A stretch of DNA of 62,210 bases from Methanoregula sp. (GCA_028679185.1 JAJRBZ010000059.1:1-62210), one strand, 5' to 3'; counted from the first letter of the stretch, positions 35,559 through 61,635 are shown. Numbers and translations: made by a program. Notes: a model not told the origin generated them from the letters alone.

Positions 35559-36707
35559 TTATTGATTAACCGGTGATTTTTGATCAGCAATCACTTCCTG
35601 ATAATACGATTCTATATCCAGGGTTATGCGATCCCAATCATATGATGCAGCAGACATAATACAGGCATTACGCATTTCGGAATGGTGCACGAGGGCCAGA
35701 CTGATCTTATCTGCAAGGTCTTCGGCAGAGAGGGAGCATAAGAAGCCATTGCTCTCAGTGATTAAATCATGGATTGCATTTGCCGGATGATTGACGGTAA
35801 CGACCGGAAGTCCACATGCCAGCGCTTCAAGTGCTGTTATGCCAAATCCCTCCCGGGTTGATGGAAGAACACATACTTTTGAAGATTTCATACGAGCGAT
35901 AATTTCATCGTGCCGCTCCTGGAATCCAATTAACCGTATTTGCGGTTCCAGGCAGGATTCATGTATCAGTGCAGTAATTGTATCCCGTTCAGGACCATCA
36001 CCGATAATCATCAGGGTGCAACCGGGTTGTTCCAAAAGAAGTACACGAAAGGCGTGGATTAACAGGTCAACATGTTTTTCTTTAATCAATCTTCCTGCAA
36101 ATATAATATCCGAGACTGAATCAGAGGGAGGAATAGAACTGAAATTCTGAAAATCAACGCCATTTGGAATAATTTTTATTTCCTCATGTCTTCCAAGCAT
36201 TGCAAGATTTTTTGCAGTAGTTTTCGAAACAGCCACATTTTTTGTGGTAAGCCGGGCTACAAGTCGTTCTGTATATATCCCTGCAAATCCATTCCATCCA
36301 AGGTATTCATACCAGTAATCCCCCCAGACTTCATGCCATGTGATTACAAGAGGGATTTTTTTCAGTTTTGAAAGAAATTTCGCTGCAAAGCATGAAAAAT
36401 AGGGAAACTGCTGGCAATCAAGGATATCAAACCTCTCCTTTAGCAGTGGAAAAATGAGGGCGATGCTGAAATAGAGAGCCTGCCTGATCGACCTCCTGCT
36501 GCCACTATAGAGGTTTTGAGAACGGCAGACCCCATGCAGGAACACACCCTCGCTGATGACAATATCTTCGCCATCCCAGAATTTCATTCCGAAAATATGC
36601 ACTTCATGCCCATTGCGGGAAAGCCTTGTAGCAAGTTCCCAGACACGTTTTTCAATACCACCTTTTACGTAAGGATAGATGACATCATAGATAAAAGCGA
36701 TTTTCAT
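35559..36707 (-). CDS. Family 4 glycosyltransferase
   Basis: 382 residues of GT-B fold: an N-terminal GGIEKRVWELATRL acceptor loop, central VIPNGVDFQNF, IFAGRLIKEKHVDLLI, and the EX7E donor site STREGFGITALEALACGLPVV. Probably adds a sugar to a lipid-linked glycan. It lies 9 nt after the membrane-bound GT2 gene, with which it forms a two-gene operon. Confidence 0.88.
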   Translation of the reverse strand: MKIAFIYDVIYPYVKGGIEKRVWELATRLSRNGHEVHIFGMKFWDGEDIVISEGVFLHGVCRSQNLYSGSRRSIRQALYFSIALIFPLLKERFDILDCQQFPYFSCFAAKFLSKLKKIPLVITWHEVWGDYWYEYLGWNGFAGIYTERLVARLTTKNVAVSKTTAKNLAMLGRHEEIKIIPNGVDFQNFSSIPPSDSVSDIIFAGRLIKEKHVDLLIHAFRVLLLEQPGCTLMIIGDGPERDTITALIHESCLEPQIRLIGFQERHDEIIARMKSSKVCVLPSTREGFGITALEALACGLPVVTVNHPANAIHDLITESNGFLCSLSAEDLADKISLALVHHSEMRNACIMSAASYDWDRITLDIESYYQEVIADQKSPVNQ

Positions 36708-36716
36708 CCTGCAAAC

Positions 36717-37874
36717 CTATACATCATCGTTATTTTCATTGAGGAGCATCATACTCTGAAACACAGCAAAAAGAAACACCTGTAACCCGGTAACAACAAA
36801 AACAAGCGAAATAATCGCCGTGGAGATTTCTGAAAGGAAGCCGAAATTTGTAAAGACCCATTGGAGGAATATGTTAAGACCGAGTAGTATACCAGCAGTG
36901 ATTAAAAAAAAACCCAGAATAAGGAATATTTCGAGACTATGGTATTTCATCAGTATTTCGATTATACCCCCCTTGTTCTCATACCCGTGGATGACAGAAT
37001 AGGTTTTCATCAAAAAAGCTGAAAGTACGACCTGAACACCCCCCATCATCAGGATTGCGCCAAGAATGAAAGCATGGAGATGGGAAGATTCAATTTCGCC
37101 CTGAATATAAAAAAACATCATAAGGAAAAGTCCAGTTAATGAAAACATAAATCCCGGGACAGCGATAAATGGAAGTGGTTTCATAAGGAGGACAAACCGG
37201 ATGTGACGCCATCCATCTGCAAAACTATGCAACTTGGAGGATGTCAGTCGTGGATAATAATCAATAGGGACTTCAACGATTTTCAGCGGCGCTTTTGATG
37301 CCATAACAAGCATTTCAGATGCAAACTCCATACCTCCGCTCTTTAATGGAAGACGATCTAATCCTTCGCGCGTAATTACGCGAAACCCGCTATGTGCATC
37401 AGAAAATCGCGTATGGAAAAATACATTGATCATCCAGGTCAGGAGAGGATTTCCAATATACCGATGGAGTCCATCCATCGAACCTTCATGAATTATGCCT
37501 TTAAAACGTGAACCGATAACAAAATCTGCACCATCCCTGAGAGGGGCAAGTAGTTTTGGAATGTCAAAAAAATCGTACGTATTGTCTGCATCCCCCATGA
37601 AAATGTAACGCCCCCGTGCATGTTTGAATCCGGTAATATAGGCATTTCCATAACCGTTTTTTTCAGCATGAAAGACTTTTGCACCTAAAGATTCTGCAAT
37701 CTCAGGAGTCCGATCAGTCGATGAATCAACAACAATTATCTCGCCTTTGATTGCATTGTCATGAAACACTTTCTGTATTCTGGTAATACATTCTCCAATG
37801 GTCTGCTCTTCATTAAGAGCGGGAAGTATTACCGAGACATCAATACTATTTTCATTGCTGGATTGTTGATCCAT
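36717..37874 (-). CDS. Family 2 glycosyltransferase with C-terminal membrane region
   Basis: 385 residues. The GT-A domain has VILPALNEEQTIGECI, VVDSSTDRTPEIA and the metal motif FMGDADNTYDF; four transmembrane helices fill residues about 235-385. This is the polyprenyl-phosphate hexose transferase layout (DPM1/AglJ type), so it likely loads a sugar on dolichyl phosphate at the cytosolic face. It is the first gene of a minus-strand pair, divergent from the SDR gene at 38107. Confidence 0.85.
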   Translation of the reverse strand: MDQQSSNENSIDVSVILPALNEEQTIGECITRIQKVFHDNAIKGEIIVVDSSTDRTPEIAESLGAKVFHAEKNGYGNAYITGFKHARGRYIFMGDADNTYDFFDIPKLLAPLRDGADFVIGSRFKGIIHEGSMDGLHRYIGNPLLTWMINVFFHTRFSDAHSGFRVITREGLDRLPLKSGGMEFASEMLVMASKAPLKIVEVPIDYYPRLTSSKLHSFADGWRHIRFVLLMKPLPFIAVPGFMFSLTGLFLMMFFYIQGEIESSHLHAFILGAILMMGGVQVVLSAFLMKTYSVIHGYENKGGIIEILMKYHSLEIFLILGFFLITAGILLGLNIFLQWVFTNFGFLSEISTAIISLVFVVTGLQVFLFAVFQSMMLLNENNDDV

Positions 37875-38106
37875 TTTATGTCCTTTTGTCTAATTTTTTG
37901 CGATACAAAAAATAATTGACTTTTGATTCAATAAAATGATTGGAAATGAATTCAAAATACTGGTTAATCAAATTATATAGGAAAATGTTCATTTCAAATA
38001 AAAATTGAATATATACACATAACTTATAGCATTAATGAATCTGAACATCCTTTTCATTTAAACCTTATAATAAATGATCATTAAAGGGGAATTAAAAGGG
38101 GAATTC

Positions 38107-39111
38107 ATGAAAAAAATACTGATTACCGGTATCAGTGGTTTTGTAGGAGGACATTTTGTTCATTACCTGACCACTCATCACAATAATCTTGAAATCCATG
38201 GAATCAGCCGTTCAAAACCTGCATGGGATTTCGTGAACATTCCTCCCCGGCTGCTCAATGTCCATCATTTCCATAAAGCTGATCTCAATGATATTCCAAG
38301 GATAAAATTACTTATAGAGGAAATTCAGCCGGACTATATCCTTCATCTCGCAGCACAAAGCTCTGTTGCAGAGAGCTGGAAGACACCGGTATTCTCATTT
38401 CTGAATAATACGAACATCTTCTTGAATATCATTGATACTGTCCGGCTCAATGATAATGCTGCCCGCGTTCTTTCGATCGGGTCATCAGAACAATATGGGA
38501 TTGTACCTGAAAATGATCTGCCGATAACCGAAGACAGGCCGCAATGCCCGGAGAATCCCTATGCAGTTGCACGGGTTGCCCAGGAGCACCTGGCAAGGAT
38601 ATATGCCAAAGGGTACGATCTCGATATCTGCTGTACCCGTTCATTCAACCACTGCGGTCCGGGCCAGACTGATCGTTTTGTCGTAAGCGCCATAGTCAAA
38701 CAGTTTGTGAAAATTGCCAAGGGTATCCAGAAACCAGTTATCAATATAGGCAACGGTGCAATTGTGCGTGATTTTGTTGATGTACATGATGTTGTTGACG
38801 CTTATAACCTCCTTCTAACCAAAGGAAAAAAAGGAGAAGTATACAATATCTGCAGCGGCCAGGGCCGGGCAATCAAGGATATTATAACCGTGCTTTCCGA
38901 AATGCTGCGTATTCGTGTCGAAGTGCATCAGGAGCAATCTCAGATCCGCCCCATAGACAACCCACGGATTATTGGAAGTTACAAAAAAATCCAGCGGGAT
39001 CTGGGGTGGGAACCAACGATTCCCTTTGAACAGAGTCTCAAGTCCATATATAAATACTGGGACCAGAGATTACAGGACGAATCGAAGATGCTTTCAGGAA
39101 ATACTCTATGA
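38107..39111 (+). CDS. SDR sugar-nucleotide enzyme, GDP-6-deoxy-mannose reductase-like
   Basis: 334 residues from the ATG at 38107 (MKKILITGISGFVGGHF); the GGGGAATT just before it repeats a similar box 15 nt upstream. The NAD(P) glycine motif, ILHLAAQSSVAESW, SIGSSEQYG, and the tail GDLGWEP-like QRDLGWEPTIPFEQS fit Rmd/GMD-type extended SDRs that make GDP-rhamnose or related deoxysugars. The catalytic YxxxK reads Y-A-V-A-R (NPYAVARVAQE), so Lys is Arg. It starts the plus-strand glycan export cluster. Confidence 0.82.
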   Translation: MKKILITGISGFVGGHFVHYLTTHHNNLEIHGISRSKPAWDFVNIPPRLLNVHHFHKADLNDIPRIKLLIEEIQPDYILHLAAQSSVAESWKTPVFSFLNNTNIFLNIIDTVRLNDNAARVLSIGSSEQYGIVPENDLPITEDRPQCPENPYAVARVAQEHLARIYAKGYDLDICCTRSFNHCGPGQTDRFVVSAIVKQFVKIAKGIQKPVINIGNGAIVRDFVDVHDVVDAYNLLLTKGKKGEVYNICSGQGRAIKDIITVLSEMLRIRVEVHQEQSQIRPIDNPRIIGSYKKIQRDLGWEPTIPFEQSLKSIYKYWDQRLQDESKMLSGNTL

Positions 39112-39238: not shown

Positions 39239-40309
39239 GTGAAGATAGCTATCTTTCATGACTATTTCGGTGCTATCGGAGGAGGGGAAAGAGTAGTAAC
39301 CACTCTTGCGGATATCTTCCATGGGGATATTGTAACAACCGATGCCGATGCACTAAAAAAATTACAATTTAAAGGTAATGTTATTCAACTTGGAGATACT
39401 TTTAAATTACCCCCGATAAAACAATTTTCAGCGCAAAAAAAATTTTATTTCTGTAACCTTTCTGATCAATACGATTTTTTTATTTTTTCCGGTTACTGGA
39501 GCCGTTATGCCGCTCACCTCAATCATCCGAATCTATGGTATTGTTATAGTCCTATAAGACCCTTTTATGACCTTTACGACGTATTTCTCCAGCGACAGAA
39601 AAACATCCTCACACGTCATGCATTTCGATTGTGGGTATATAGTCTACGCTGGTATGATAAAAAATCCATCCGGAATATTGATCGGATTATCGCGATTTCC
39701 CAGATAACCAAAGCGAGGATTGAACATTACCTCCATTATAAGGCAGATGTTATTTACCCCCCGGTCGACACATCACAGTTCAGGTTTAAAGAGTCCGGAA
39801 ATTTCTGGTTATCAGTGAACCGGCTTTATCCAGAAAAACGCATCGAACTGCAGATTGAGAGCTTCCGCCGAATGCCTGATGAGAACCTTGTGATCGCAGG
39901 CGGATTTTCGAAAGGTGATCATGCAGAAGCGTATACCAAGAGGATACTAAGGGATTTACCGGATAACGTAAGGATCGTTGGTGAGGTCGAAGAAAAAGAA
40001 CTTGTTGATCTTTATGCATGCTGCCGTGGTCTGATTTGCACCGCCCTCAATGAGGATTTCGGATTAACTCCGCTTGAAGCGATGGCGAGCGGGAAACCGG
40101 TTGTCGCAGTGAATGAAGGAGGGTTCTGTGAGACCGTGACCGACGAAACCGGCCTCCTGGTAAATCCAAATCCCCAAGCTATCATTGATGCTGTGCGGGA
40201 GGTATCAAAGGATGCTGAGTCGTTCCGTAAGGCTTGCCAAGAGCGAGCGCGGCTTTTTGATATGGCGATCTTTGCAGAAAAAATGAAAGCGGCTGTGAAC
40301 CAAAGATAA
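39239..40309 (+). CDS. Family 4 glycosyltransferase (WbaZ-like)
   Basis: 356 residues with a GTG start at 39239. The N-terminus reads [18 protein letters not shown], the acceptor loop of mannosyl- or rhamnosyltransferases; [15 protein letters not shown] and [11 protein letters not shown] follow, and the donor site is [19 protein letters not shown]. It lies between the deoxysugar SDR and wzm, so it likely builds the backbone of the exported polysaccharide. Confidence 0.86.
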
Positions 40310-40350: not shown

Positions 40351-40406
40351 ATATTTTTAAGAAGGAAAATACCATAATTACAATTGTCATTACCACAATT
40401 ATGGTA
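40351..40406 (+). promoter_or_regulatory. Candidate wzm promoter with a perfect 10-bp inverted repeat
   Basis: The TATA-like ATATTTTTAA (40351-40360) is followed by the arms TACCATAATT (40370-40379) and AATTATGGTA (40397-40406), spaced by 17 nt. The repeat lies where transcription would start and 30 nt before the wzm TTG, so it could be an operator for a dimeric repressor or a leader hairpin. Confidence 0.4.
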
Positions 40407-40435
40407 CATAAGAACAATTTCGGCGGGGATCGATT

Positions 40436-41203
40436 TTGAATTTCAGCCTGATCATTGAACTTACCAAACGGGATTTTATCGAACGTTATTCAGGATCAGC
40501 TCTGGGTTTTATCTGGTCATTCATCTATCCCCTCATTAATATCCTGATCTATATGATCATCTTCGGCAACCTGATGGGGGCCCGGCTTCCTGGCATGTCA
40601 TCAGTGTGGGGGTATGGAATCTACCTCATTTCAGGACTTATTCCGTGGACGGCATTTGCAAATACAGTAACACGATCTTCTACTGTATTTCTGGATAAAA
40701 AAAATATCATAACAAAGATACGCATAGACCTCCCGAGACTCCCCCTCTTCATCGTATTTTCAGAGACAATTACCTTTGTTGTAACACTTGTTATATTTCT
40801 TGGCATCCTTCTCATTACCGGGTTCTCCTTCTCGCCGTATCTTTTATTTATTCCTGTAATCTATCTCATCCAGCAGATCTTCGCGTATTCCCTGGGTTTT
40901 TTCCTCGCGATGATTGTGGTCTTTCTTCGGGATCTTAAGGAGGTTGTTACAATCGGTTTTCAGATCTGGTTCTGGTTCACCCCTATCGTCTATGTGTTTG
41001 AGATTCTTCCATCTTTAGCCCAGCAAATTCTTTTCTGGAACCCTGCACTCGCATTCATTTCCGCATACCATGATATTTTTATTTTGCAGAAGATGCCCTC
41101 ATTCATCTATCTCACGCTCGTTTTAATGATGAGTAGTATCCTGATTGTCTTTGATTATATGATCTTTAAAAAGCTGGAGAAGGATATCCGGGATTTCATA
41201 TGA
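40436..41203 (+). CDS. wzm: ABC-2 type polysaccharide export permease (Wzm/TagG family)
   Basis: 255 residues with a TTG start preceded by GGCGGGG. Starts with FSLIIELTKRDFIERYSGSALGF, the typical cytosolic helix and RY motif of the family, followed by six predicted transmembrane helices; FFLAMIVVFLRDLKEVV and QIWFWFTPIVY are conserved in Wzm/TagG. Forms the membrane channel that moves a lipid-linked polysaccharide across the membrane. The ATPase gene wzt is 84 nt downstream. Confidence 0.92.
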   Translation: MNFSLIIELTKRDFIERYSGSALGFIWSFIYPLINILIYMIIFGNLMGARLPGMSSVWGYGIYLISGLIPWTAFANTVTRSSTVFLDKKNIITKIRIDLPRLPLFIVFSETITFVVTLVIFLGILLITGFSFSPYLLFIPVIYLIQQIFAYSLGFFLAMIVVFLRDLKEVVTIGFQIWFWFTPIVYVFEILPSLAQQILFWNPALAFISAYHDIFILQKMPSFIYLTLVLMMSSILIVFDYMIFKKLEKDIRDFI

Positions 41204-41287
41204 TGCAATTTTCAAAGAGGATGAAGAGACATGCTTGTTGAAAAAGAATTCTTAGTGATATAATTTACCCCCATCAGGTGCACCATC

Positions 41288-42562
41288 ATGATTAAAGTTG
41301 AAGGGATCTCAAAAAAATTCAAACTCTACCATTCACCAGCCTATCGGCTCAAAGAGATCATCTTCAGGCAACAATATCACAAGGATTTCACCGCTTTGGA
41401 TACTATCTCTTTTGAGGTCGGCGCAGGTAAGACTCTTGGTATCATCGGGCAGAATGGAGCCGGCAAATCTACCCTCCTGAAAATTCTCTCCGGCATTGTA
41501 ATTCCGGACAGCGGAACCATCCAGATTGATGGAAAGGTCACCGGGCTTCTTGAGCTTGGTACCGGTTTTAACACGGAGATGACGGGCCTTGAGAATATTT
41601 ACATGAACGGTACCCTAATTGGCATGAGCAAGGACGAAATCGACCGGAAAAAACAGGCAATTATCGACTTTTCCGAACTGGGAGAATTCATCAACGAGCC
41701 CATCAAGACCTATTCTTCAGGTATGACCATGCGACTTGCATTCTCTATCGCAATCCATGCAGATCCGACATGCTTCCTTGTTGATGAAGCACTTTCTGTA
41801 GGAGATGCATACTTCCAGCAGAAGTGCATGAGGAAGATCCAGGATTTCAGGGCGAGTGGGGGATCGATCATTTTTGTGTCGCACGATATGAATGCAGTAA
41901 AGACGTTGTGTGATACCGCGATATTGCTGGATAATGGACGAATAATTGATTATGGTGAGCCAAAGGAGGTTGTGGATTTTTATCAGAATATGATGCTGAA
42001 AAAGATGCATCAGGGGGAGGTTGAAGTAAATGTAAAGAAGGGAAAAAATGACTCTTCACAAAATAACAAAAACAGTTACCGTTCAGGAATTTCAACCAAT
42101 CAAGTGGAAGTACTGTCAGTAAATATTTTTGATAAATCCAATCAGGAAATAAATTATATTGAAAGTGGGGATTTTGTAAATGTGGTCAGTAAAATCCTTT
42201 CATTTGCAACGCTCGATGACCCCCATTACGGAATTATAATCCGTGATAAATTTGGCTCAGAAGTATATGGAGCCTCTACAGAATCTTTAAGCTTAATAAC
42301 TGCACCTCAGTATAAAGGAGAGATTGTAACCGCAATCTTTTCCTTATATCTTCCCTTATCTCCTGGCGAGTATACGATATGCATCGGTGTTGCAAATGGT
42401 GCTTGTGACTTTGGTATTTTCGAAGAATACTGTTTATTTATTCAAGATATCGCAATTATAAAAATAATCCAAAAACATGGAAAATCGAGATTTGGGGGTC
42501 TAGTAAATCTTAATGCGAAAATGGATATTTTAAAAGATAACGATAAAGTAAACAATGATTAA
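41288..42562 (+). CDS. wzt: Polysaccharide export ATPase with C-terminal carbohydrate-binding domain (Wzt)
   Basis: 424 residues. The ABC domain (1-240) has Walker A IIGQNGAGKSTLL, signature YSSGMTMRL, and Walker B CFLVDEALSVGD, typical of Wzt/TagH. From about residue 255 there is an additional beta-sandwich (NQVEVLSVNIFDK, YGIIIRDKFGSEVYG, LSPGEYTICIGVANG) that matches the Wzt C-terminal domain. In bacterial O9a/O12 systems this domain binds the modified non-reducing end of the glycan before export. Here it suggests that the exported chain carries a specific terminal cap, which the four methyltransferase genes downstream could supply. Confidence 0.93.
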   Translation: MIKVEGISKKFKLYHSPAYRLKEIIFRQQYHKDFTALDTISFEVGAGKTLGIIGQNGAGKSTLLKILSGIVIPDSGTIQIDGKVTGLLELGTGFNTEMTGLENIYMNGTLIGMSKDEIDRKKQAIIDFSELGEFINEPIKTYSSGMTMRLAFSIAIHADPTCFLVDEALSVGDAYFQQKCMRKIQDFRASGGSIIFVSHDMNAVKTLCDTAILLDNGRIIDYGEPKEVVDFYQNMMLKKMHQGEVEVNVKKGKNDSSQNNKNSYRSGISTNQVEVLSVNIFDKSNQEINYIESGDFVNVVSKILSFATLDDPHYGIIIRDKFGSEVYGASTESLSLITAPQYKGEIVTAIFSLYLPLSPGEYTICIGVANGACDFGIFEEYCLFIQDIAIIKIIQKHGKSRFGGLVNLNAKMDILKDNDKVNND

Positions 42563-42614
42563 AGCGGATTGTTTCGAAAAAATATTTAGCATCATAAAAT
42601 AAATTTTTTGCATC

Positions 42615-43475
42615 ATGAATTTAAAAAAATATAGACCATCTTCATCACAAATCCAGTCGTTAATTGGGGATGGGTGTTATCAACCATTTATTTTTTCTGA
42701 CGAATTTATTTCAGGTATTGGTTATAGTTGGGTAACAGGAGAATTAATTATTGCAATGGATAAAGCCAATGATATTGCATATCGATGGCAAGCACCAAAT
42801 ATGCCATTAAAAAGGATTAAAAATTATATTACAGACGAAAACTGGGAATTATTTGTCGATTGTAACACCAGGTTACGAAACATGTATGATTCGTGGATTA
42901 ACCATACTCTTAATGCATTAGATTTTCCGTTAGATTATAGTGTAGTCGATACCGCTTCAAATGCCGGATATTTTCTTTATAAATTTAAAGAAAAAGAGGC
43001 AGGAACATGTATTGGTTATGATTTGTTGGATTTTTCTAATGTATTTTCTACATTGAATACACTTACGGGATATAATGTGAAATTTTTTAATAAATCTTAC
43101 GACATGACTAGTCACACAATCCCTGATTCATCTCCTGCTGATATTGTAATATCATGTGCTATCATGTGTCATTTGAGCGATCCATTAAACTATCTCGCAT
43201 TCCTTGGGTCAATCACAAAAAAGGCATTGTTATTATTCACCTCTGTTGATGATACGGATACTTTTCAAATAATCTATGATGGCGCCAAAGCATTTTATCC
43301 GGATGCACGATTCCCAAATTGTTTTGATGCTAATACCCGGATTTCAAAAGGTGTGTTATTATTCGGATTAAAAGAATTAGGATTTTCTGAAATTATTGAA
43401 TTGCCATATTCTGATTTGTGGATTCCTCTGGAAACATATAAAAAATTTAAAACAATAGTGGCATTAAAAGAATGA
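42615..43475 (+). CDS. SAM-dependent methyltransferase-like protein
   Basis: 286 residues. The N-terminal 100 residues have no clear motif; the Rossmann part starts at YSVVDTASNAGYFLYKF, an atypical motif I, followed by IGYDLLDF, ADIVISCAIMCHLSDPLNYL and LLFTSVDD. This resembles the DUF1698-like or type 11 group. AT-rich coding sequence. It is the first of four successive methyltransferase genes behind wzt; the spacing of about 50 nt and the same strand make a common transcript likely. Confidence 0.7.
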   Translation: MNLKKYRPSSSQIQSLIGDGCYQPFIFSDEFISGIGYSWVTGELIIAMDKANDIAYRWQAPNMPLKRIKNYITDENWELFVDCNTRLRNMYDSWINHTLNALDFPLDYSVVDTASNAGYFLYKFKEKEAGTCIGYDLLDFSNVFSTLNTLTGYNVKFFNKSYDMTSHTIPDSSPADIVISCAIMCHLSDPLNYLAFLGSITKKALLLFTSVDDTDTFQIIYDGAKAFYPDARFPNCFDANTRISKGVLLFGLKELGFSEIIELPYSDLWIPLETYKKFKTIVALKE

Positions 43476-43500
43476 TACTGTTCTGACTCTGGGAGGATGG

Positions 43501-45294
43501 ATGTTAGAGAATATTCTTAATATTATGCAACAGACGGATTTTGATTTTCGAAAATATACCAATCCAAATGACAAATTATCCTATCTCTTTTCTGAATGGG
43601 TTCCCTATTACCGGATGAAATATGCCATATGCAAAGCAATTAATCCTCATTCAATTCTTGAAGTGGGAGTAAGATACGGATATAGCGCAATCACTTTTTT
43701 ATCAGCATCACAAAATGCGACTTATCTCGGAATTGATAACGATACCAACACATATGGAGGAACACAGGGTGCTATTGAATGGGCAAAAAAAATTACAAAA
43801 AATTCCAATGCAACATTTTTAATAGCAAATACTCAGGAGATGGAGTCTCTTCCAGGGGAGCATTATGATTTGATCCACATCGATGGACAGCAGGATGGAG
43901 ACGGTACATTTCACGACCTTGAACTTGCACTTCAGAAAGCGAAATGGATTCTCGTGGATGGATATTTCTGGTCGCAAGAGAACATGATTAGTTCAACATA
44001 TTTTCTGAATAAATATAAACAGTTTATCGAATATGCCATCATTATACCATCATATGCAGGAGATTTATTAATAAAAACGAAGGAATCGGCTAAAAATATC
44101 CGATTCTCAAGGAAAACAGATACAGATCAAACGATACGCGAAGAATACGATCAAATCTATTTTTTACAGGATTGCGGGGGATATAATTCATTTAAAAAAT
44201 ATCAGGGCAGACAAGTAACTGATGAAAGACTTCTTGCTGCATTATATCTTGCCAGTCCCGCCCATAATAAATCAATTCTTGATATCGGCTGTGGGAGAGG
44301 AGAACTTTGCTATGCCTTAGCTCAATTAGGAGCAAATGTAACAGGAATAGATTATTCCTCCTCTGCAATTTCAATTGCAGAAAAGACATTTCATGATGCA
44401 ATCAAAAAAGACAAACTAAAATTTATTTGCATCGATTTCCTTCAGTTCAATTTTGATAAAAAATTTGACCGGATTATCGCTACCGATTTTATCGAGCATA
44501 TCGAGAAAAGCCGGTATGATCTGGTCTTACGAAAAGTTGCAGGGCTTCTGAAACCGGGAGGATTATTCATCCTTCATACTTCCCCCAATGTGTTGAATTT
44601 TGAAGCCCCCTATCAAGAGAAAAGAGCCATTGCCCGTTCAATTGGGAGTTACCTTCCTAAAAATCCGCGAACATATTATGAAGATATTATGCATATCAAT
44701 GAACAGTCGCCAGATTCTATCAAGAAAAATCTGGAAAAACATTTTCCATATTCAATTGTCTGGGTTGCTACCGCTCCGGATATCGTAGGATCGCTCGGAA
44801 GAGTATTTTTAATGAATGAGACGATTAATGCCCGCAGCATTTTTGCGATCGCATCTGATTCCATGATAGAACATTCCCGAATTCTTAATCAACTGATCCA
44901 GAATCCATTGGATACCAATAAGCTCGCTGCAAAAATCTCCTGTGGCTCATACCCGGCCAATGTAGCACCACATGAGCATTTTTCCGTCGAAATTACAATT
45001 GATAATTTGAGTGATGAGAGATGGGTGTCCCTCCCGCCAAACCCAGTACACCTCGCCTATCATTGGCTTGATGAAAAAAGAGAGATTATCGTATTTGACG
45101 GGATGAGAACAGTTATCCGATATCCCTTGTTGCCTGGGGAGAAACGGACATTTTCAATTGATGTAATTGCTCCACCAAGGGACGGAAATAATATCCTTCA
45201 GGTTACATTGGTTCAGGAGGGATGTTTCTGGTTTGAAAAATTCGTTCGGGATCTCCCGGTATTTCTGAAGATCAAAACTAAACGAGATAAATAG
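43501..45294 (+). CDS. Three-domain protein: two methyltransferase domains plus Ig-like tail
   Basis: 597 residues. Domain 1 (about 30-195) resembles CmcI/Methyltransf_24: ILEVGVRYGYSAITFL, YLGIDND, DLIHIDGQQDGDGTFHDLE. Domain 2 (about 220-400) is a type 11 methyltransferase: ILDIGCGRGELCYAL, VTGIDYSSSA, RIIATDFIEHIEK, LLKPGG. The tail (about 475-597) is a beta-sandwich with VEITIDNLSDERWVS, LAYHWLDE, a GMRT turn and LLPGEKRTF, like Ig-type accessory domains of bacterial surface-glycan enzymes. GGGAGG four nt before the ATG marks the start. Two active sites on one chain suggest sequential methylation of one glycan terminus. Confidence 0.78.
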   Translation: MLENILNIMQQTDFDFRKYTNPNDKLSYLFSEWVPYYRMKYAICKAINPHSILEVGVRYGYSAITFLSASQNATYLGIDNDTNTYGGTQGAIEWAKKITKNSNATFLIANTQEMESLPGEHYDLIHIDGQQDGDGTFHDLELALQKAKWILVDGYFWSQENMISSTYFLNKYKQFIEYAIIIPSYAGDLLIKTKESAKNIRFSRKTDTDQTIREEYDQIYFLQDCGGYNSFKKYQGRQVTDERLLAALYLASPAHNKSILDIGCGRGELCYALAQLGANVTGIDYSSSAISIAEKTFHDAIKKDKLKFICIDFLQFNFDKKFDRIIATDFIEHIEKSRYDLVLRKVAGLLKPGGLFILHTSPNVLNFEAPYQEKRAIARSIGSYLPKNPRTYYEDIMHINEQSPDSIKKNLEKHFPYSIVWVATAPDIVGSLGRVFLMNETINARSIFAIASDSMIEHSRILNQLIQNPLDTNKLAAKISCGSYPANVAPHEHFSVEITIDNLSDERWVSLPPNPVHLAYHWLDEKREIIVFDGMRTVIRYPLLPGEKRTFSIDVIAPPRDGNNILQVTLVQEGCFWFEKFVRDLPVFLKIKTKRDK

Positions 45295-45369
45295 TATATT
45301 ATTTTTAAGTTCCGCGAAATATTCTATGTGCTAATCGCATAATTTAAAATTTCATACAAGGAGGGATTC

Positions 45370-46713
45370 ATGGAGAACGCGACTATCGGGAATTGCGATG
45401 ACAACATCAATGCCGAAGAGATAATGCAAAAAATACGGGAGAGAATTTATCGCAGCAAAATTTCTGGTGAAATGCCTCAGGATCCTTATGTATTAATATC
45501 ATCCTTTTATCTAGGTGAAAACGCTGAAGGGTTACCTGAATCCGTCAAGCAGGATTTATCTTCGGTCAATTCATCATGGGATCTCAAAAATTCTAGTTAT
45601 GATATAAGTTCTCACCACAAATTTTTTGGAAAAATCCTCGTGAAAAGTCGTGAGCTTGTCCATGGCGAAGTACGGCGTTATGTGGATCCGATCTTTTCCC
45701 GCCAGACAATGTTCAATGCAAGCACGATTCGGCTGCTGATGAGGACTTTCCAAATCAACGCAGAACTTGAAAACGCAATTTCCCTTTTAAAACAAGAAAC
45801 TAATCAAAAGATTAAAGATACGATAGACACCGCAAAATCTGAAACAGACTCAAAAATTGAAGATCGTGCACGTGAACTAGAATTAAAAATTGAAGATCGC
45901 GAACGTGAATTATTTTCCCAGCTGGATGCCGATATCCATTCTCGGGCATCGCTTGCACGTATCCTCGAAGATCGAATACAGACGGAACTTGTCAAAAAGA
46001 GCGCGGTCTCGGAATCCATCACTCCTACTGATACAACCTATTTTCTCTTTGAGGAACGATTCAGGGGTTCCCGGGAAGATATTAAACTTCGACAATTGTC
46101 ATTTCTCCCTTATTTCGAAAAATGTTCCCGGGTGCTTGATATTGGATGTGGAAGGGGAGAGTTTCTTGAGGTTCTCCGTGAACATAAAATTGGTGGGATT
46201 GGGATAGATATTGACGCAGATATGATCGCCTACTGCCATTCCCGCCAGCTTTCAGTTATACAGTCTGATGCGGTAACATATCTTGAGGCACAGGAAGATA
46301 AGAGCCTGGATGGAATATTCATCGATCAAGTCGTAGAGCATCTTGAACCCGATTATCTTGTCAGATTGCTCGCACTCTGTTACCAGAAACTAAAATTTGG
46401 ATATTTTATCGTCGTGGAGACAGTAAATCCGCTGTCTTTTGTTTCTTTTGTCAATTTCTTCATCGATATGACACACAAGAGACCGGTTCATCCTGAAACC
46501 CTTCAATTCCTCATGAGTATCGCAGGATTTCGGGTGAGTGAGAGGAAATTTTTCTCACCAGTTTCCGATGACGGCAAACTGAAAAAGATGATGATTACCG
46601 TGGAAATGGATGAAAATGCCCGAAATAGATATGATTTGTTCAATCAAAATATCGAGAAATTAAATGCAGTGCTGTTCGGTCCGCAGGACTACGCGATAAT
46701 CGGGAAAAAGTGA
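45370..46713 (+). CDS. Coiled-coil methyltransferase, WbdD-like chain terminator candidate
   Basis: 447 residues; AGGAGGG precedes the ATG. The N-terminus NAEEIMQKIRERI is typical of methyltransferases in bacterial polysaccharide clusters. Residues about 130-210 are a charged coiled coil, including an 11-residue tandem repeat KIEDR(A/E)REL. The class I methyltransferase domain follows: RVLDIGCGRGEFLEVL (255-270), IGIDIDADM, GIFIDQVVEHLEPDYL. In E. coli O9a WbdD, a methyltransferase/kinase with a coiled coil caps and measures the chain. No kinase domain is seen here and the coil precedes the enzyme domain. Confidence 0.8.
   Translation: MENATIGNCDDNINAEEIMQKIRERIYRSKISGEMPQDPYVLISSFYLGENAEGLPESVKQDLSSVNSSWDLKNSSYDISSHHKFFGKILVKSRELVHGEVRRYVDPIFSRQTMFNASTIRLLMRTFQINAELENAISLLKQETNQKIKDTIDTAKSETDSKIEDRARELELKIEDRERELFSQLDADIHSRASLARILEDRIQTELVKKSAVSESITPTDTTYFLFEERFRGSREDIKLRQLSFLPYFEKCSRVLDIGCGRGEFLEVLREHKIGGIGIDIDADMIAYCHSRQLSVIQSDAVTYLEAQEDKSLDGIFIDQVVEHLEPDYLVRLLALCYQKLKFGYFIVVETVNPLSFVSFVNFFIDMTHKRPVHPETLQFLMSIAGFRVSERKFFSPVSDDGKLKKMMITVEMDENARNRYDLFNQNIEKLNAVLFGPQDYAIIGKK
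45853..45918 (+). repeat. Two 33-nt tandem repeats in the coiled-coil coding region
   Basis: Units 45853-45885 and 45886-45918 share AAAATTGAAGATCG at their start and encode KIEDRARELEL and KIEDRERELFS. The 11-residue period is a hendecad, a known coiled-coil periodicity, so a unit could be gained or lost without breaking the frame. Confidence 0.8.
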
Positions 46714-46719
46714 AATTAT

Positions 46720-47508
46720 ATGATGCTCATGAACCAAGAAGAGCCTAAAAGCAATCCAGATGTTATTTTGAGGGAACTTAAAAATAATTTTCGAGTTATT
46801 GATATTCTTATCGAACTGAAAGATTTCAAAAAATTTTGTGACACTGTTGGTTATCCAAGATCTTACGGAAGACTTTTTGGAAATTTTTTAAATGAAAAAT
46901 TATTAGAGCATTATATATCCACAATCTTATTGGATTTTTCAGTAAATGATCGTTTTATCGATATTGCTGCAAGCCATTCACATTATGCTGAATATATCCA
47001 CAAGAAAGGTATTGAATCCTATAAACAGGATCTCATATTCCCAAAAGGAATTACGGTTAGTCGCGATTCAGACGTTCCCTTAATTGGGGGAAGTGCTGCA
47101 AACCTTCCCTTTCGCGATAATTATTTCACCAGAATGACACTGCATTGCAGCATCGAGCATTTCGAATATGTTGATGATATAAATTATATAAATGAAGCTT
47201 CAAGAGTTTTGCAGCCAAAGAGCAAAATCTGTATACTTCCGCTTTATTTTGGTGAGGAATATCATATAGTAACAGATCCCAAAATATTCGAAAAAGAAAA
47301 AAATGAAATACGTTTCGAAGAAAATGTTCCTATTTATTTTAAAAAAGGTTTCGGAAACCGACATTGCAGAGTATATTCTGTATCAGAATTTAAAAATCGC
47401 CTGGCAGATGACAAAATTTGGCAAGTAGAAATATTCCATGTTTTAAATCTCAATGATATTGGCAAGGAATTATATTGTGAATTCGCGGCATTATTTATCA
47501 AAAAATAA
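46720..47508 (+). CDS. Type 11-like SAM methyltransferase, divergent motif I
   Basis: 262 residues. The nucleotide-binding motif I is degenerate (FIDIAASHSHYAEYI rather than GxGxG), but ANLPFRDNYFTRMTLHCSIEHFEYVDDINYINEASRVLQP is the usual post-I/III pattern. It may have lost activity or use a different substrate. Last gene of the wzm-wzt-methyltransferase run, beginning 6 nt after the coiled-coil gene and ending 3 nt before the convergent GT4 gene. Confidence 0.7.
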   Translation: MMLMNQEEPKSNPDVILRELKNNFRVIDILIELKDFKKFCDTVGYPRSYGRLFGNFLNEKLLEHYISTILLDFSVNDRFIDIAASHSHYAEYIHKKGIESYKQDLIFPKGITVSRDSDVPLIGGSAANLPFRDNYFTRMTLHCSIEHFEYVDDINYINEASRVLQPKSKICILPLYFGEEYHIVTDPKIFEKEKNEIRFEENVPIYFKKGFGNRHCRVYSVSEFKNRLADDKIWQVEIFHVLNLNDIGKELYCEFAALFIKK

Positions 47509-47511
47509 TTT

Positions 47512-48705
47512 TTATTTTTTTCCCGTCGCATTTTTAATTTCATTCACCATCAATTCTGCGATTTCTTTCCAGACATAATGCGCCTTGACAAGATCCCGCC
47601 CATTGGATGAAAGGAACTCAGATAAATTTTTATCATTGATAACATCAGAAATCTTCTCTGGAAATGCGTCAATATCGCAAATAATAGCATGAATGCCATT
47701 TTTAAGATTGATTCCCCGTGCGCCAACCGCGGTTGATACAACAGGAAGTCCTGCCGCCATATAGTCCAGCATTTTCAGATTTGTTCCAGAACCACTCATC
47801 ATGGGATTTATGGCAACATTTGTAACCCTGAACAATTCGCGTTTTTCTTCATCCGTGATTAAATAGGCAAAACCAACATTTTTTCCATGGTTTTCGTTCC
47901 TTATCGTCCAGCATACGCTTCCGGCAATGAGGAAATATACATTTGGTAATTTGGGTGCGATATTTCGAATTATCTGCTTTGCAGATTCGACATTTGGGGG
48001 ATGCCCACTTCCCAAAAAAAGTATCAACGGGGCTGAAATTATTTGCTCTTTCTTGATCAATCTACTCTTGTATATTTCGGTATAGTATTCCAAATCCACA
48101 CCATTTGGAGCTACTTTGATTTTTGACGTGTCCACATCATAAACCTGTGTAAAAAGCTGTTTATCATCTTCTGACATGGCAAAACAGAGATCGCATCGTT
48201 TTAAGAGAGCCTGACCCGTCATCCTTAATCTGTCTAGCAGTATGTTTTTTAAATACCCATTCGAAAGAATAGACTTTTTAAGAGCGTATTCAACATTAAG
48301 CGCTTCATAAATTACCAGCTGATTCCGGATATATGGAGCTACAGCAGGATACATATAGGGGTGGCAAAAAATTACAATGTCACATTCTGCAAGTTCTTTT
48401 CGAATAACTTTTTTAAGTTGAAGATTTGAAGAGGCGAAAAACAGAGCACCAAAATCATCGACTGAAGAACGCATCATTAGATTTGTAATAAAAATAATTA
48501 TTTTATAAAAAAAAGTCTTGGGGACTGAAATTTCATGAAAATTTTCCGAGATAATTTTATTCTGAATTTTTGGATTTTCTCCCAGACACACATAGATTAT
48601 CTGAAAATTTGATGATATGTTTTGATAAATATTGAATATCCGGACTTTTCCTCCATGAACAATCGGGAAAATGGTAAAATCATTCACAACAAGAATTTTC
48701 TTCAT
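47512..48705 (-). CDS. Family 4 glycosyltransferase, compact paralogue
   Basis: 397 residues from the ATG at 48705; a longer frame overlaps the upstream GT. GT-B fold with KVRIFNIYQNI at the acceptor side, VAPNGVDLEYY, LFLGSGHPPN and a donor site MSGSGTNLKMLDYMAAGLPVVST. Its C-terminal Rossmann domain runs directly from FLIAGSVC to VGFAYLITDEEK, whereas the neighbouring paralogue has about 135 extra residues there. The two lie head to tail with one nucleotide between them, probably by tandem duplication. Confidence 0.85.
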   Translation of the reverse strand: MKKILVVNDFTIFPIVHGGKVRIFNIYQNISSNFQIIYVCLGENPKIQNKIISENFHEISVPKTFFYKIIIFITNLMMRSSVDDFGALFFASSNLQLKKVIRKELAECDIVIFCHPYMYPAVAPYIRNQLVIYEALNVEYALKKSILSNGYLKNILLDRLRMTGQALLKRCDLCFAMSEDDKQLFTQVYDVDTSKIKVAPNGVDLEYYTEIYKSRLIKKEQIISAPLILFLGSGHPPNVESAKQIIRNIAPKLPNVYFLIAGSVCWTIRNENHGKNVGFAYLITDEEKRELFRVTNVAINPMMSGSGTNLKMLDYMAAGLPVVSTAVGARGINLKNGIHAIICDIDAFPEKISDVINDKNLSEFLSSNGRDLVKAHYVWKEIAELMVNEIKNATGKK

Positions 48706-48706
48706 A

Positions 48707-50323
48707 TTAGAATCTCTCAATTTTTTCTGACATATCATGAACAATAAATTCCCAGTCATATCGCTTTTCTACAAGATTATGCCCATTTTTTTTCAATGAA
48801 TCTGCAAGACGATCATCTGATAACAAATCATGAATTTTTTGGGGGAAATCCGCGATTTCACAGATTAATGCATGGTTGTGATCGATTAAGTCCAGACCTC
48901 GTGCTCCCATTGGGGTCGTTATAGTAGGGATTCCGGCGGAAAGATAGCCAAGGACTTTAATATTTGTTCCCGAACCGCTGAGCATGGGATTTATAGCGAT
49001 ATCAGAAATTTTTAAAATCTCCTTCTTTTCCTCGTCACTTATCTGACCAAGTAAATACACATTTTCTGAGTTAATAAACGTAGATATCCGATTCTGCGAA
49101 TCATGTAAATCAAATAGGAGGGATTCTCCATTCTTTGAATATTCAATTTGTTGAATTGCAACACCCAATACTCTGCCAGAATCCCGAAGTTCCTTTTCGC
49201 AGGTGAATGATAGTGTCGTTTCCTGGTGCGTGGAGAAGGGGATTGTAAGAATATTCCAACCAGTAACCAGAGGGAAGATCTCATGAGTTGATATTCCGGT
49301 TACCTCAATTGTCTGAAGATGGGGTGAAAATAATTTAATCGAAATTGATTCAATATTTTCCGATAGTTCTATCTTTGATTCGGGTTTTACCCAAACTATA
49401 GGAGTGGTATCCCAGAATTCAAGTGGATAAAATCCAGCAATAAGTCGTATATTTTTTATATTCCCAAAAATGGGAAGTTCTTGAGATAAATTCTGATTTG
49501 TCAATCCCTCTTGGTTCGTAAAATATTGAGAAACATTCCCTGCGATGAGAAAAATAATTTCTGGCAATTGTGCTGAAATTGTGAGAATCTGGGTAACAGC
49601 TTCAATATTTGGGGGGTGATAGCTTCCGATAAACAGGCATATGGGAGGATTTTTACACCCCTGACGGTTGAAAAAAACTGAATTATACGCTGCAACAGGA
49701 ATACCGTTTGGGGCCAGATAAAATTTTTCCGTAATAACGTGATAATTTTCGATAAGACTGTTTTTATCTTCATCTGATACGACAAATATCATATCGCATT
49801 GTTTTGTTAGTTTTTTTTCAATATTATAGACGTATCTTAAAAAAAATTTACCTATGGCAGAATTCGAAAAAACGTGTTTCATCAATTCGTATTCATTGTT
49901 ATACGCATCATACACGATTTTTTTCCCCTTGAGAAAACGATGAGGCACTGTATAAAGGAAAGGCGATGCACAAAAAATGATATCCGTTTTAAGTAATTCT
50001 TGTTTAACACATTTTTTAAAATTTGGATTGAACCTGCTTTCAATTGATGTGATTACGGCAGAACATTCATTGATTGAGGAATATTTCCCCACAAAATGAT
50101 GAAGGGCTGAAGAAATTATTGTCTTTGGAATTCTGATTTCTTTAAAATGTTCTGCATGAATTACTGTTTCCATGGTATTGTCTTTATTTTTATGGGTGAA
50201 ACTCACCAGCGTCACATCATAATATCTCGAAAGCCCCCTTAAAACATAAAAGAGTCGTTCCTCGCCTCCGCTTTTTGGTGGGGTAAATGCTGGATGAAAG
50301 CTTAATGCAAGGATAGCACGCAT
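48707..50323 (-). CDS. Family 4 glycosyltransferase with an inserted beta-sandwich domain
   Basis: 538 residues. GT-B fold (PPKSGGEERLFYVLRGL, LAPNGIPVAAYN, LFIGSYHPPNIEAV, SGSGTNIKVLGYLSAGIPTI). Residues about 285-420 interrupt the second Rossmann domain between the strand FLIAGNV and YLLGQISDEEK; this insert starts AGFYPLEFWDTTPIVW and ends RVLGVAIQQIEYS. The same module appears in the GT4 at 50358 and the membrane protein at 53338. The insert probably forms a side domain for glycan binding. Confidence 0.83.
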   Translation of the reverse strand: MRAILALSFHPAFTPPKSGGEERLFYVLRGLSRYYDVTLVSFTHKNKDNTMETVIHAEHFKEIRIPKTIISSALHHFVGKYSSINECSAVITSIESRFNPNFKKCVKQELLKTDIIFCASPFLYTVPHRFLKGKKIVYDAYNNEYELMKHVFSNSAIGKFFLRYVYNIEKKLTKQCDMIFVVSDEDKNSLIENYHVITEKFYLAPNGIPVAAYNSVFFNRQGCKNPPICLFIGSYHPPNIEAVTQILTISAQLPEIIFLIAGNVSQYFTNQEGLTNQNLSQELPIFGNIKNIRLIAGFYPLEFWDTTPIVWVKPESKIELSENIESISIKLFSPHLQTIEVTGISTHEIFPLVTGWNILTIPFSTHQETTLSFTCEKELRDSGRVLGVAIQQIEYSKNGESLLFDLHDSQNRISTFINSENVYLLGQISDEEKKEILKISDIAINPMLSGSGTNIKVLGYLSAGIPTITTPMGARGLDLIDHNHALICEIADFPQKIHDLLSDDRLADSLKKNGHNLVEKRYDWEFIVHDMSEKIERF

Positions 50324-50357: not shown

Positions 50358-52073
50358 ATGAAAGCCTTGCATATTACCTTTCGATATGGAAATGACGTTT
50401 ATGGGGGGGCGGAACTATATTTCAGGCATCTTTCAGAAGAACTTAAAAAGCGTGGTGTTGAAATCGATATCTGCACTACACAAACTCACACGCTAATACC
50501 GTTCATAAAATCCGGGACTAAATTTGATAACAGTCTTGGAAATGAAACGATAAATGGTATCAGAGTTTTTAGATTTCCAGCAAAATCCCAGAACCGGTAT
50601 CTTTCATTAATTTTTGAAAAACTTATACAATGGCAACGTGACCGGGAAGAATTGGAATCTTCATCAGAAATCAGAGAGATATTCAATAAATCATATTTCG
50701 AAAACGGAGGTATGCTCGCGGATGGATGGAATCAACTTGAACGTTACGGGGACTCTTTCATGCGATGGACAAAGTCCGATGCCGCATTTGTGATCAATGA
50801 CTCAAATATTTCAAAAATCAGTTTTTCATTGAATAATCCCAAAGGATTTTTTACTCAGATTGAAATCATAGCAAATGGCCATCATGAACGAAGAATTATC
50901 AGGTCTCTATCACATTGGAGTACCATATCATTTCAACTAGCAAATGTATCAGGTCTGGTTACGGTAAAAATTCATTGTGGGAACGTATGGCGTCCGATTA
51001 AAGATTTCAGATCACTCGGGGTTGCAATATCCAATATCAAATATGTATCCCAATCGGGAGAGGAAACGATCGATCTGGAACATGATTACAGGTTTTTCCT
51101 GAATAAACAAAAAAAATATATTCCCTATTTAATGCAGCGTGCTCATGATCGTCCAAAATACTATTCCTGGATGTTTGATTACCTTCGGGGACCACGATCT
51201 CCGGATATGCAGCGATGGTTAGAGAGAAATATATCCAACTATGATATTGTCTTGGCACAGATGTTACCGTTTAATACACTAAAATATTCTTTTATTGCAA
51301 AAAAATTCAATAAACCCCTCATCCTTCTTCCTCTCATGCACGTTGATGATGAATTTTATCACTGGAATCATTATTATGATATGCTCAAATCGGCTGATTG
51401 CATCTTTTCACTTACGTTATTTTCAAAAAAGCAGGTTTTTGATAATCTTGGCGCAAAGTGCATAAATGTTGGTGCAGGAATTGAAACAGGGATTTTTTTA
51501 AATGGTGACATCAATGGATCCAGATTCCGGGAAAAATACCACCTTACTGATAAGGAAATAATTTTGACGGTATCCCGAAAATCCCCGACAAAAAATTATG
51601 ACTATCTCATCGAGGCGATTGAAGGAATAAAGCATGATCATCCCGAGGTAATTCTCGTTATGATTGGTCCTGATGAGGATAAAAAACCGATAAAATCAGA
51701 AAACGTTTTGTATCTGGGAAAGCTTGGTGATCGAGATCTTGCCGATGCGTATGATGCATGTGATGTCTTTGCAATGATGTCAGAGAGTGAGAGTTTTGGC
51801 ATGGTTTTTTGCGAAGCGTGGTCAAGGAAAAAACCTGTAATAGGCAACAGAAATTGCGGGGCTGTAGCAGCAATCATAGATCATAATTGGGATGGACTAC
51901 TGTGTTCAGACAAAAAGGAAGTACGTTCGGCAATAATTCAATTACTCGAGGATAAAAAGAATTCAGTGATATTTGGAGAGAGAGGTTACCAAAAAGTGAT
52001 TGAAAGATATACATGGGATAAAATCTCAAATCGGGTTTACAATTGTTATAATAATCTCATAATGAGGAATTGA
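50358..52073 (+). CDS. Family 4 glycosyltransferase with a beta-sandwich inserted in the N-terminal domain
   Basis: 571 residues. The GT-B halves are clear: YGGAELYFRHLSEEL and VFRFPAKSQ at the N-terminus, ILTVSRKSPTKNYDYLIEAI and MSESESFGMVFCEAWSRKKPV at the C-terminus. Between residues about 118 and 245 lies a separate block beginning ADGWNQLERYGDSFMRW and ending RSLGVAISNIKYV. This is related to the insert in the divergent GT4, but here it sits in the first Rossmann domain. It starts 34 nt from the divergent GT4 start and is followed 1 nt later by a methyltransferase gene. Confidence 0.83.
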   Translation: MKALHITFRYGNDVYGGAELYFRHLSEELKKRGVEIDICTTQTHTLIPFIKSGTKFDNSLGNETINGIRVFRFPAKSQNRYLSLIFEKLIQWQRDREELESSSEIREIFNKSYFENGGMLADGWNQLERYGDSFMRWTKSDAAFVINDSNISKISFSLNNPKGFFTQIEIIANGHHERRIIRSLSHWSTISFQLANVSGLVTVKIHCGNVWRPIKDFRSLGVAISNIKYVSQSGEETIDLEHDYRFFLNKQKKYIPYLMQRAHDRPKYYSWMFDYLRGPRSPDMQRWLERNISNYDIVLAQMLPFNTLKYSFIAKKFNKPLILLPLMHVDDEFYHWNHYYDMLKSADCIFSLTLFSKKQVFDNLGAKCINVGAGIETGIFLNGDINGSRFREKYHLTDKEIILTVSRKSPTKNYDYLIEAIEGIKHDHPEVILVMIGPDEDKKPIKSENVLYLGKLGDRDLADAYDACDVFAMMSESESFGMVFCEAWSRKKPVIGNRNCGAVAAIIDHNWDGLLCSDKKEVRSAIIQLLEDKKNSVIFGERGYQKVIERYTWDKISNRVYNCYNNLIMRN

Positions 52074-55608: not shown

Positions 55609-56106
55609 CGGGATCTATTGCATAAGTTACCAAAATCCGATAAATTTTGTTCATTTATGATTGTAATAAGCATAGCAAAAGATTTTTCGGATTTTTTAAA
55701 AGATTCCGCATTTCCTTTCCTTATCAATAAAAACTCCATCCTCATCACCATAATTCTCCTCGACGTCTAGTTTTATGTAAGTATCAATAAAAGTCTTAAT
55801 CTCACTTCTATGTATAAATCCGCTTTTCTTGCTTGCGTTCGTATTGTATACATGCTGTAAAATTCTGATTGATATTGCATTTAATAAACAAATACGAAAA
55901 TGTACACAAATCACATATCCCTTATCGTTGTTTGTCGAGGTTGGGAATAATAGGATACAGTTATTCATTCATATATGAAAAGTATATTACAGAATAAATT
56001 CATTCGTTAAAATCCCAAATCGAATATTGGATATTAGTAATGCTGAGGAAAAACAGATAAAGATTGTTTTAGATTCAGACTCTAAATAACTGCTTATCAG
56101 GAAATC
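55609..56106. other. AT-rich intergenic stretch with a doubtful short open frame
   Basis: A minus-strand frame from 55696 to 55968 (90 codons) ends in a charged stretch (KLDVEENYGDEDGVF) but has no recognisable domain, ribosome-binding site or TATA box that I can defend. The stretch also contains the upstream region of the flippase-like gene at 56107. I call no gene. Confidence 0.3.
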
Positions 56107-60819: not shown

Positions 60820-60873
60820 AACGACTCCCCTCTAGAATTATATTCTACGCACTGTATTGAATAGAACGTCATT

Positions 60874-61626: not shown

Positions 61627-61635
61627 CACTACCAA

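Follow-up and report, generated by a model that had tools for sequence, protein, structure and literature searches.

The nearest solved Wzt to the one studied here is that of Aquifex aeolicus (PDB 8dku and 8dky), a transporter whose glycan is of the D-rhamnose/D-mannose type: the O antigen is a polymer of these two sugars, with 3-O-methyl caps that are read by the C-terminal domain (CTD) of Wzt (PMC9445017). In E. coli O8 and O9a, a Wzt with a cap-binding CTD is accompanied by WbdD, a methyltransferase (MT) with a long coiled coil, which carries a kinase domain in the O9a type (PMC3482155). ORF6 of Klebsiella O7 and related modular terminators combine a coiled coil with further domains, the modules being fused or separate; those of O7 include a kinase domain and polymerase modules (PMC11231755). 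In Geobacillus, which has no LPS, a methyl-capped rhamnan is predicted to leave the cell through Wzm/Wzt and to be attached to the S-layer protein by an oligosaccharyltransferase (WsaB), and WsaE joins an MT to glycosyltransferase modules (PMC2943079). In archaea, terminal methylation of Halobacterium lipid-linked glycans was reported in 1985 (Lechner 1985, as cited in PMC8674786); the N-glycosylation of Halobacterium salinarum with transient terminal methylation concerns a short tetrasaccharide, and its MT is not defined (PMC8674786). No description of archaeal Wzm/Wzt export linked to the oligosaccharyltransferase AglB was found within the scope of our literature search.

The window analysed here is a stretch of 62,210 nucleotides from Methanoregula sp. 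(GCA_028679185.1, JAJRBZ010000059.1:1-62210). A first-pass annotation had described in it a Wzm permease, a Wzt with an extra CTD, and four MT genes on one strand as an archaeal export and capping system, and gene calls and Pfam matches recovered all of these. The features of the locus are as follows (GT, glycosyltransferase; NBD, nucleotide-binding domain).

32836-35511, + strand: AglB oligosaccharyltransferase, 891 aa, Wzt-linked paralogue (Pfam AglB_core-like, STT3, and AglB_L1; tree grouping)
35559-36707, - strand: GT4 glycosyltransferase, conserved locus flank (Pfam; synteny in relatives)
36717-37874, - strand: GT2, dolichyl-phosphate-sugar-synthase-like, with a C-terminal membrane part (Pfam Glycos_transf_2; conserved synteny)
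38074-39111, + strand: Rmd-like GDP-4-keto-6-deoxymannose reductase for GDP-D-rhamnose synthesis (best PDB match 2pk3, E 1.1e-73)
39239-40309, + strand: GT4 mannosyl/rhamnosyltransferase, WbaZ-1-like (PDB 2f9f, E 6.5e-67)
40436-41203, + strand: Wzm permease (Pfam ABC2_membrane, 1.6e-12)
41288-42562, + strand: Wzt, whole gene (ABC_tran, 3.2e-20; Wzt_C, 9.5e-21, at residues 269-408)
41288-42007, + strand: Wzt NBD, residues 1-240 (Pfam ABC_tran)
42074-42562, + strand: Wzt C-terminal carbohydrate-binding domain (CTD), residues 263-424, a swapped module (Wzt_C; AlphaFold model; break in identity and GC3)
42615-43475, + strand: MT1, methyltransferase-like, CmoB-related (weak Pfam/NCBIfam matches)
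43501-45294, + strand: MT2, two MT domains and a C-terminal domain of ~110 aa (Pfam Methyltransf_24 and Methyltransf_25)
45370-46713, + strand: MT3, coiled-coil MT with N-terminal block, coil 99-206, and MT domain 222-447 (Pfam MetW/Methyltransf; alignment; model; 3dli)
46720-47508, + strand: MT4 methyltransferase (Pfam Methyltransf_11; found at this position in L064, with related genes in L148 and L155)
47512-50323, - strand: pair of GT4 glycosyltransferases (47512-48759; 48707-50323), of which the second has an inserted domain (Pfam; synteny)
50358-52073, + strand: GT4 glycosyltransferase with an inserted domain (Pfam; neighbour kept in L064, L229, and L244)

The six genes from Wzm to MT4 occupy 40436-47508 on the + strand in the order Wzm, Wzt, MT1, MT2, MT3, and MT4, separated by gaps of 84, 52, 25, 75, and 6 bases, and a convergent glycosyltransferase gene closes the run. 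The first two are neighbours that encode an ABC-2 permease and a Wzt-type ATPase, as in ABC-dependent glycan export. The start that the first-pass annotation had given to the feature, 40351, lies in non-coding DNA, since the Wzm frame opens at the TTG at 40436. The GT4 pair at 47512-50323 follows MT4 in L064 and lies near Wzt in L229 and L244; neither of the two GT4s with an inserted domain gave a Pfam match for that domain.

The locus resembles the Aquifex system in its CTD fold and in its D-rhamnose/D-mannose context, whereas the archaeon has no LPS and an AglB gene is linked. As in E. coli, an MT with a long coiled coil is encoded beside a Wzt with a cap-binding CTD, but the MT domain lies C-terminal of the coil, the PDB search gave no sequence match to WbdD, and extra MTs are encoded in a variable slot. 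In contrast to Klebsiella O7, the window has two MT proteins (MT2 and MT3), which are fused only in some Methanosarcina-group genomes. The resemblance to Geobacillus lies in the combination of Wzm/Wzt with an oligosaccharyltransferase in an organism without LPS, although the Geobacillus glycan is O-linked and WsaB is not AglB.

The gene set recurs well beyond the window. The MT3 model matched 45 of the 394 genomes in a phylum sample, and MT3 recurs through Methanomicrobiales and Methanosarcinaceae, across two transporter lineages. Each of the 19 genomes with a strong MT3 match (own genome included) has a Wzt_C domain within 3 kb of MT3, so that the synteny of wzm-wzt with a coiled-coil MT gene, which the first-pass annotation had proposed to look for in related methanogens, was indeed observed. 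The association of Wzt and MT3 is far beyond chance, and the set of exporter and MT3 is real and widespread. The loci are typically arranged as Rmd/Gmd, GT4, Wzm, Wzt, a variable slot, MT3, and glycosyltransferases, with the WbaZ-1-like GT4 almost always directly upstream of wzm; L064 has Wzm-Wzt-MT2-MT3-MT4-GT-GT-GT, the same order as the window, and the locus of L231 comprises AglB, Gmd/Rmd, GT4, Wzm, Wzt, and MT3.

The structure of the CTD was then considered. An AlphaFold model of residues 263-424, built with a 24-row alignment, had a pLDDT of 88. Foldseek comparison of this model with the PDB gave solved Wzt cap-binding domains as all of the 17 best matches, among them Aquifex 8dky (with 3-O-methyl-D-mannose), which leads the list, O12 5hno, and O9a 2r5o; the matches that followed, to NPC2 and RhoGDI, were distant. 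The CTD profile also matched Wzt cap-binding domains in the PDB at 1.5e-17. The first-pass proposal depended on a carbohydrate-binding fold in this domain, and the 17 top matches bear it out.

The sugar-binding pocket gave a more differentiated picture. The Aquifex contacts were mapped for 46 archaeal Wzts whose loci contain MT3, and these Wzts sorted into clean pocket classes, the mapping being least certain near the trap loop, where it spans a 3-residue gap. In a second archaeal transporter lineage, whose NBDs are 43-46% identical to that of the window (four members aligned), N313, T346, A348, H350, and W362 are all kept in 22 of 24 Wzts, and the contact L300 is not; recognition of a methyl cap is thus well predicted for this lineage from its pocket residues. 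In the lineage of the window, N313 is kept in 19 of 22 members, and H350 and W362 are lost. In the window CTD itself, none of the five contacts is present, S, C, G, A, and F replacing N313, T346, A348, H350, and W362, respectively; these contacts belong to the Aquifex subtype with a 3-O-methyl mannose/rhamnose cap and are not required in the wider family. Because the methyl-cap contacts of Aquifex are lost, the window system probably uses a cap other than a plain 3-O-methyl sugar, and its CTD should read another end. For the same reason, a methylated end is no more than a putative ligand of this CTD in the window genome, which counts against the reading preferred below.

Comparison with Methanoregula relatives showed that the CTD has been exchanged. 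The NBD of the window is 80-88% identical to theirs, whereas the CTD is only 26-35% identical, and GC3 falls from 0.52 to 0.25 at the joint between the two domains, a break that was tested against codon permutation within amino acids. These two breaks mark the window CTD as a swapped module. Elsewhere, CTD types cut across NBD lineages: for L148 and L064, identity is 83% in the CTD and 77% in the NBD, and for L143 and L155 it is 61% and 70%, respectively. A recent transfer confined to the window was considered for the low GC3 of the CTD and of MT1/MT2 and was rejected as a unique event, since nearly all Methanomicrobiales members show the drop; the CTD and accessory genes form a cassette that is repeatedly AT-rich. 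The slot between Wzt and MT3 contains MT1 and MT2 in the window, a B12-radical-SAM protein in L143 and L144, and a radical-SAM/SPASM protein with an MT in L148, and it is empty in L141 and L142. A strict pairing of CTD type with MT3 was also rejected. Because MT3 similarity tracks the core and not the CTD type, a strict match between enzyme and CTD would hold at most for the accessory genes.

MT3 consists of an N-terminal block and a C-terminal MT domain, both invariant in the alignment, with a helical spacer between them, and its MT domain is close to the A. fulgidus structure 3dli. In the model, residues 99-206 form a single helix (pLDDT mostly 60-87; overall pTM 0.48). Across 30 homologues, the spacer measures 95-213 residues with conserved ends, and the family-averaged hydrophobic periodicity peaks at 3.7 residues, which none of 300 shuffles reached; for the window MT3 alone the periodicity was not significant (reached by 323 of 1000 shuffles), so that significance belongs to the family average. 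Because of this 3.7-residue repeat, the spacer is a real hendecad-like coiled coil, and the first-pass description of one MT with a long coiled coil stands. As in WbdD-type systems, a single protein whose gene lies beside wzm-wzt combines an MT with a coiled coil. The order of domains differs: in WbdD the catalytic part is N-terminal and the coil C-terminal, whereas the order N-block, coil, and MT domain was found in 20 of 20 aligned MT3 proteins. The reversed order pointed out earlier is therefore a genuine and conserved difference. No WbdD was found among the PDB matches of MT3 to E 0.1, nor among the best 60 of 74 PDB matches of MT2 (to E 0.001), and Pfam/NCBIfam searches gave no kinase match in MT1-MT4, a domain that belongs to the O9a type. 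The first-pass annotation had read the missing kinase as a sign of distinct chemistry, an argument that fails because E. coli O8 WbdD is likewise without a kinase domain (PMC3482155).

For the other enzymes, Pfam indicated two clear MT domains in MT2 and one each in MT3 and MT4, whereas MT1, which is CmoB-like, fell below every Pfam cut-off and is the weakest of the four MT calls. The C-terminal ~110 aa of MT2 had no match by Pfam or by PDB sequence search. Several Methanosarcina-group genomes (L065, L073, L074, L230, and L235) have MT2 and MT3 joined into a single protein behind Wzt, and the fusion occurs in L238 with no visible Wzt. The occurrence of MT1 and MT4 is variable among relatives. 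A search of 232 Methanomicrobiales genomes found MT1 in its own genome only, and MT1 relatives were rejected as a cassette marker, with none in the other 231.

The probable sugars were deduced from the neighbouring genes. In the PDB search, the protein encoded at 38074 has Rmd (2pk3) as its best match, its Gmd partner was found above the curated cut-off on another contig of the same genome (G000:C85), and the GT4 that precedes Wzm resembles WbaZ-1 (2f9f). Together these suggest that Gmd and Rmd supply GDP-D-rhamnose and that the glycan is of the D-rhamnose/D-mannose (D-rhamnan) type.

The first-pass annotation had held the system to be separate from AglB-based N-glycosylation. However, the AglB gene ends 5.8 kb ahead of Wzt in the window, and of the 17 assessable Methanomicrobiales loci, 10 have AglB no more than 15 kb from Wzt and another 3 have it within 35 kb, compared with about 0.4 loci expected by chance for 1-3 AglB copies per 2.4 Mb by our own rough estimate. 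Outside this order, AglB was seen in 16 of 21 loci viewed, mostly divergent and next to GT4-Wzm or Rmd/Gmd. An AglB gene in the same neighbourhood, kept across relatives, is as in an AglB-dependent N-glycosylation locus. In an AglB tree of 60 sequences, made by a quick method with SH-aLRT support only, 18 unlinked Methanomicrobiales copies formed one clade, and all 12 linked copies fell in another group (support 89) together with 8 unlinked ones; in Methanosarcinaceae, 15 linked copies stood apart from the five unlinked paralogues sampled. The window AglB grouped with other Wzt-linked AglBs. With AglB in the same locus, adjacent in most archaeal versions, and with the linked copies forming their own paralogue clade, the claimed separateness is not supported. 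Of the earlier interpretation, the Wzm/Wzt exporter, the cap-binding CTD fold, and the conserved coiled-coil MT partner are retained, size control and terminal methylation are kept as inferences, the separateness from AglB finds no support, and the kinase argument is given up. The linked paralogue is not exclusive to the system, because some linked-type AglBs come from genomes without MT3. Furthermore, four loci (G081, G087, G107, and G078) have Wzt and MT3 with no AglB nearby, which counts against supply of a dedicated AglB, and the clustering of AglB could mirror a general glycosylation island.

Taken together, these findings point to an archaeal locus for ABC-transporter-dependent glycan assembly and export, in which the chain end is recognised, the cap cassette can be exchanged, and the product most likely goes to a dedicated AglB. 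We assign this reading a probability of about 0.6. The glycosyltransferases of the locus would assemble a lipid-linked glycan, probably with a high content of D-rhamnose and/or D-mannose, on the cytoplasmic face of the membrane. MT3, anchored to the membrane or the polymerase via its conserved N-terminal block and with a reach set by the variable-length coiled coil, would modify the non-reducing end and so limit chain length, and accessory enzymes from the variable slot (MT1 and MT2 in the window) may alter the appearance of the chain end. The modified end would then be bound by the Wzt CTD, the chain exported by Wzm/Wzt, and the exported chain transferred by the linked AglB paralogue to asparagine of surface proteins. 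Exchange of the CTD and accessory genes as an AT-rich cassette against the conserved NBD/MT3 core would lead species to export differently capped chains. Transfer of the DolP glycan in Halobacterium appears not to require its terminal methylation (PMC8674786), which counts against this mechanism. A fuller version, which we hold tentatively and at somewhat below even odds, is that at least two methanogen orders have an N-glycosylation route with a long, end-capped D-rhamnan/mannan-type chain, which Wzm/Wzt exports to a dedicated AglB paralogue only once the Wzt CTD has read its tip. In this version the cap code (the CTD plus accessory enzymes such as MT1/MT2 or radical-SAM proteins) would move between species as one cassette while the NBD in front of it is conserved, and close relatives would be capped differently.

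Other explanations were weighed against this reading. The locus may instead produce a surface polysaccharide in its own right, size-controlled and methylated at its end, that carries a separate anchor and does not involve AglB; in bacteria, Wzm/Wzt systems are used for LPS or capsule, the CTD fold and the coiled-coil MT are present, and the CTD and capping genes alone need no AglB. We consider this unlikely, as no dedicated ligase besides AglB was noted in the locus and a separate AglB paralogue is linked to such loci in two orders. Characterised archaeal N-glycans are mostly short, and Wzm/Wzt might accordingly be a plain flippase of a short lipid-linked oligosaccharide, with the MTs only decorating internal or terminal sugars and having no role in length or licensing. 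This would suit L247, whose Wzt of 237 aa is too short for a CTD though MT3 and AglB are nearby, but the conservation of the cap-binding CTD, the full set of five methyl-cap contacts kept by one lineage, and a coil beside Wzt that varies in length between conserved ends make it rather improbable. That unrelated MTs of a glycosylation island came to lie by chance behind an ABC transporter is very improbable for the locus as a whole: glycan loci do gain MTs by transfer, yet MT3 stands next to Wzt throughout the 19 genomes and in both transporter lineages, and MT2-MT3 fusions occur. The synteny thus disfavours chance for MT3 and MT2, and for the variable MT1 and MT4 it is possible.

An export locus of the preferred kind would be a concrete candidate exporter with a built-in chain-end reader; it is linked to one particular AglB paralogue and occurs in Methanosarcina, which is experimentally tractable. 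If true, it would offer a mechanism by which terminal methylation of the Halobacterium type could act in archaeal glycan export. The locus also shows the exchange of a cap-recognition module between lineages. Related Wzt/MT loci were also observed in purple sulfur bacteria and Desulfobulbaceae.

The slot directly behind Wzt is filled in relatives by radical-SAM proteins, which were found at the following loci.
L143, 7883-9703: radical-SAM protein (B12-binding or SPASM type), directly behind Wzt
L144, 7935-9752: radical-SAM protein (B12-binding or SPASM type), directly behind Wzt
L148, 8441-9487: radical-SAM protein (B12-binding or SPASM type), directly behind Wzt
L077, 9269-10288: radical-SAM protein (B12-binding or SPASM type), directly behind Wzt
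This occupation of the slot suggests that the exported glycan in these relatives undergoes C-methylation or other radical chemistry.

Domains lacking a Pfam match were observed in the methyltransferase MT2 and in two GT4 glycosyltransferases of the window.
44902-45291: C-terminal domain of MT2, approximately 110 aa
49094-49447 (-): inserted domain in GT4
50685-51122 (+): inserted domain in GT4
The MT2 domain, which also gave no significant PDB match, was additionally contained in a 1482-aa membrane protein of L068; by analogy with the Klebsiella O7 terminator, it is possibly an Ig-like carbohydrate-binding domain. The GT4 inserts comprise approximately 120-145 residues each. Homologues of comparable size were observed in L229 and L244 and, for the first of the two genes, in L064.

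In other Methanoregula genomes (L162, L163, L177, and L178), which lack the coiled-coil methyltransferase MT3, the Wzt is of another kind: it measures 581-591 aa and its C-terminus is extended. Accordingly, the genus has several Wzm/Wzt systems. At L247 (G230:C1:42000-61900), Wzm, Wzt, a WbaZ-1-like GT4, MT3, and an AglB-like protein (593 aa) were all present in a single locus, where Wzt was 237 aa, a length that would not accommodate the carbohydrate-binding C-terminal domain.

A further glycosylation block was observed at 53338-61635 of the window, containing a PMT_2 membrane protein, an LPG_synthase_TM flippase-like protein, methyltransferases, GT4 and GT2 glycosyltransferases, and a sugar-nucleotide epimerase. 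In Methanosarcina relatives, genes resembling this block adjoined the Wzt loci.
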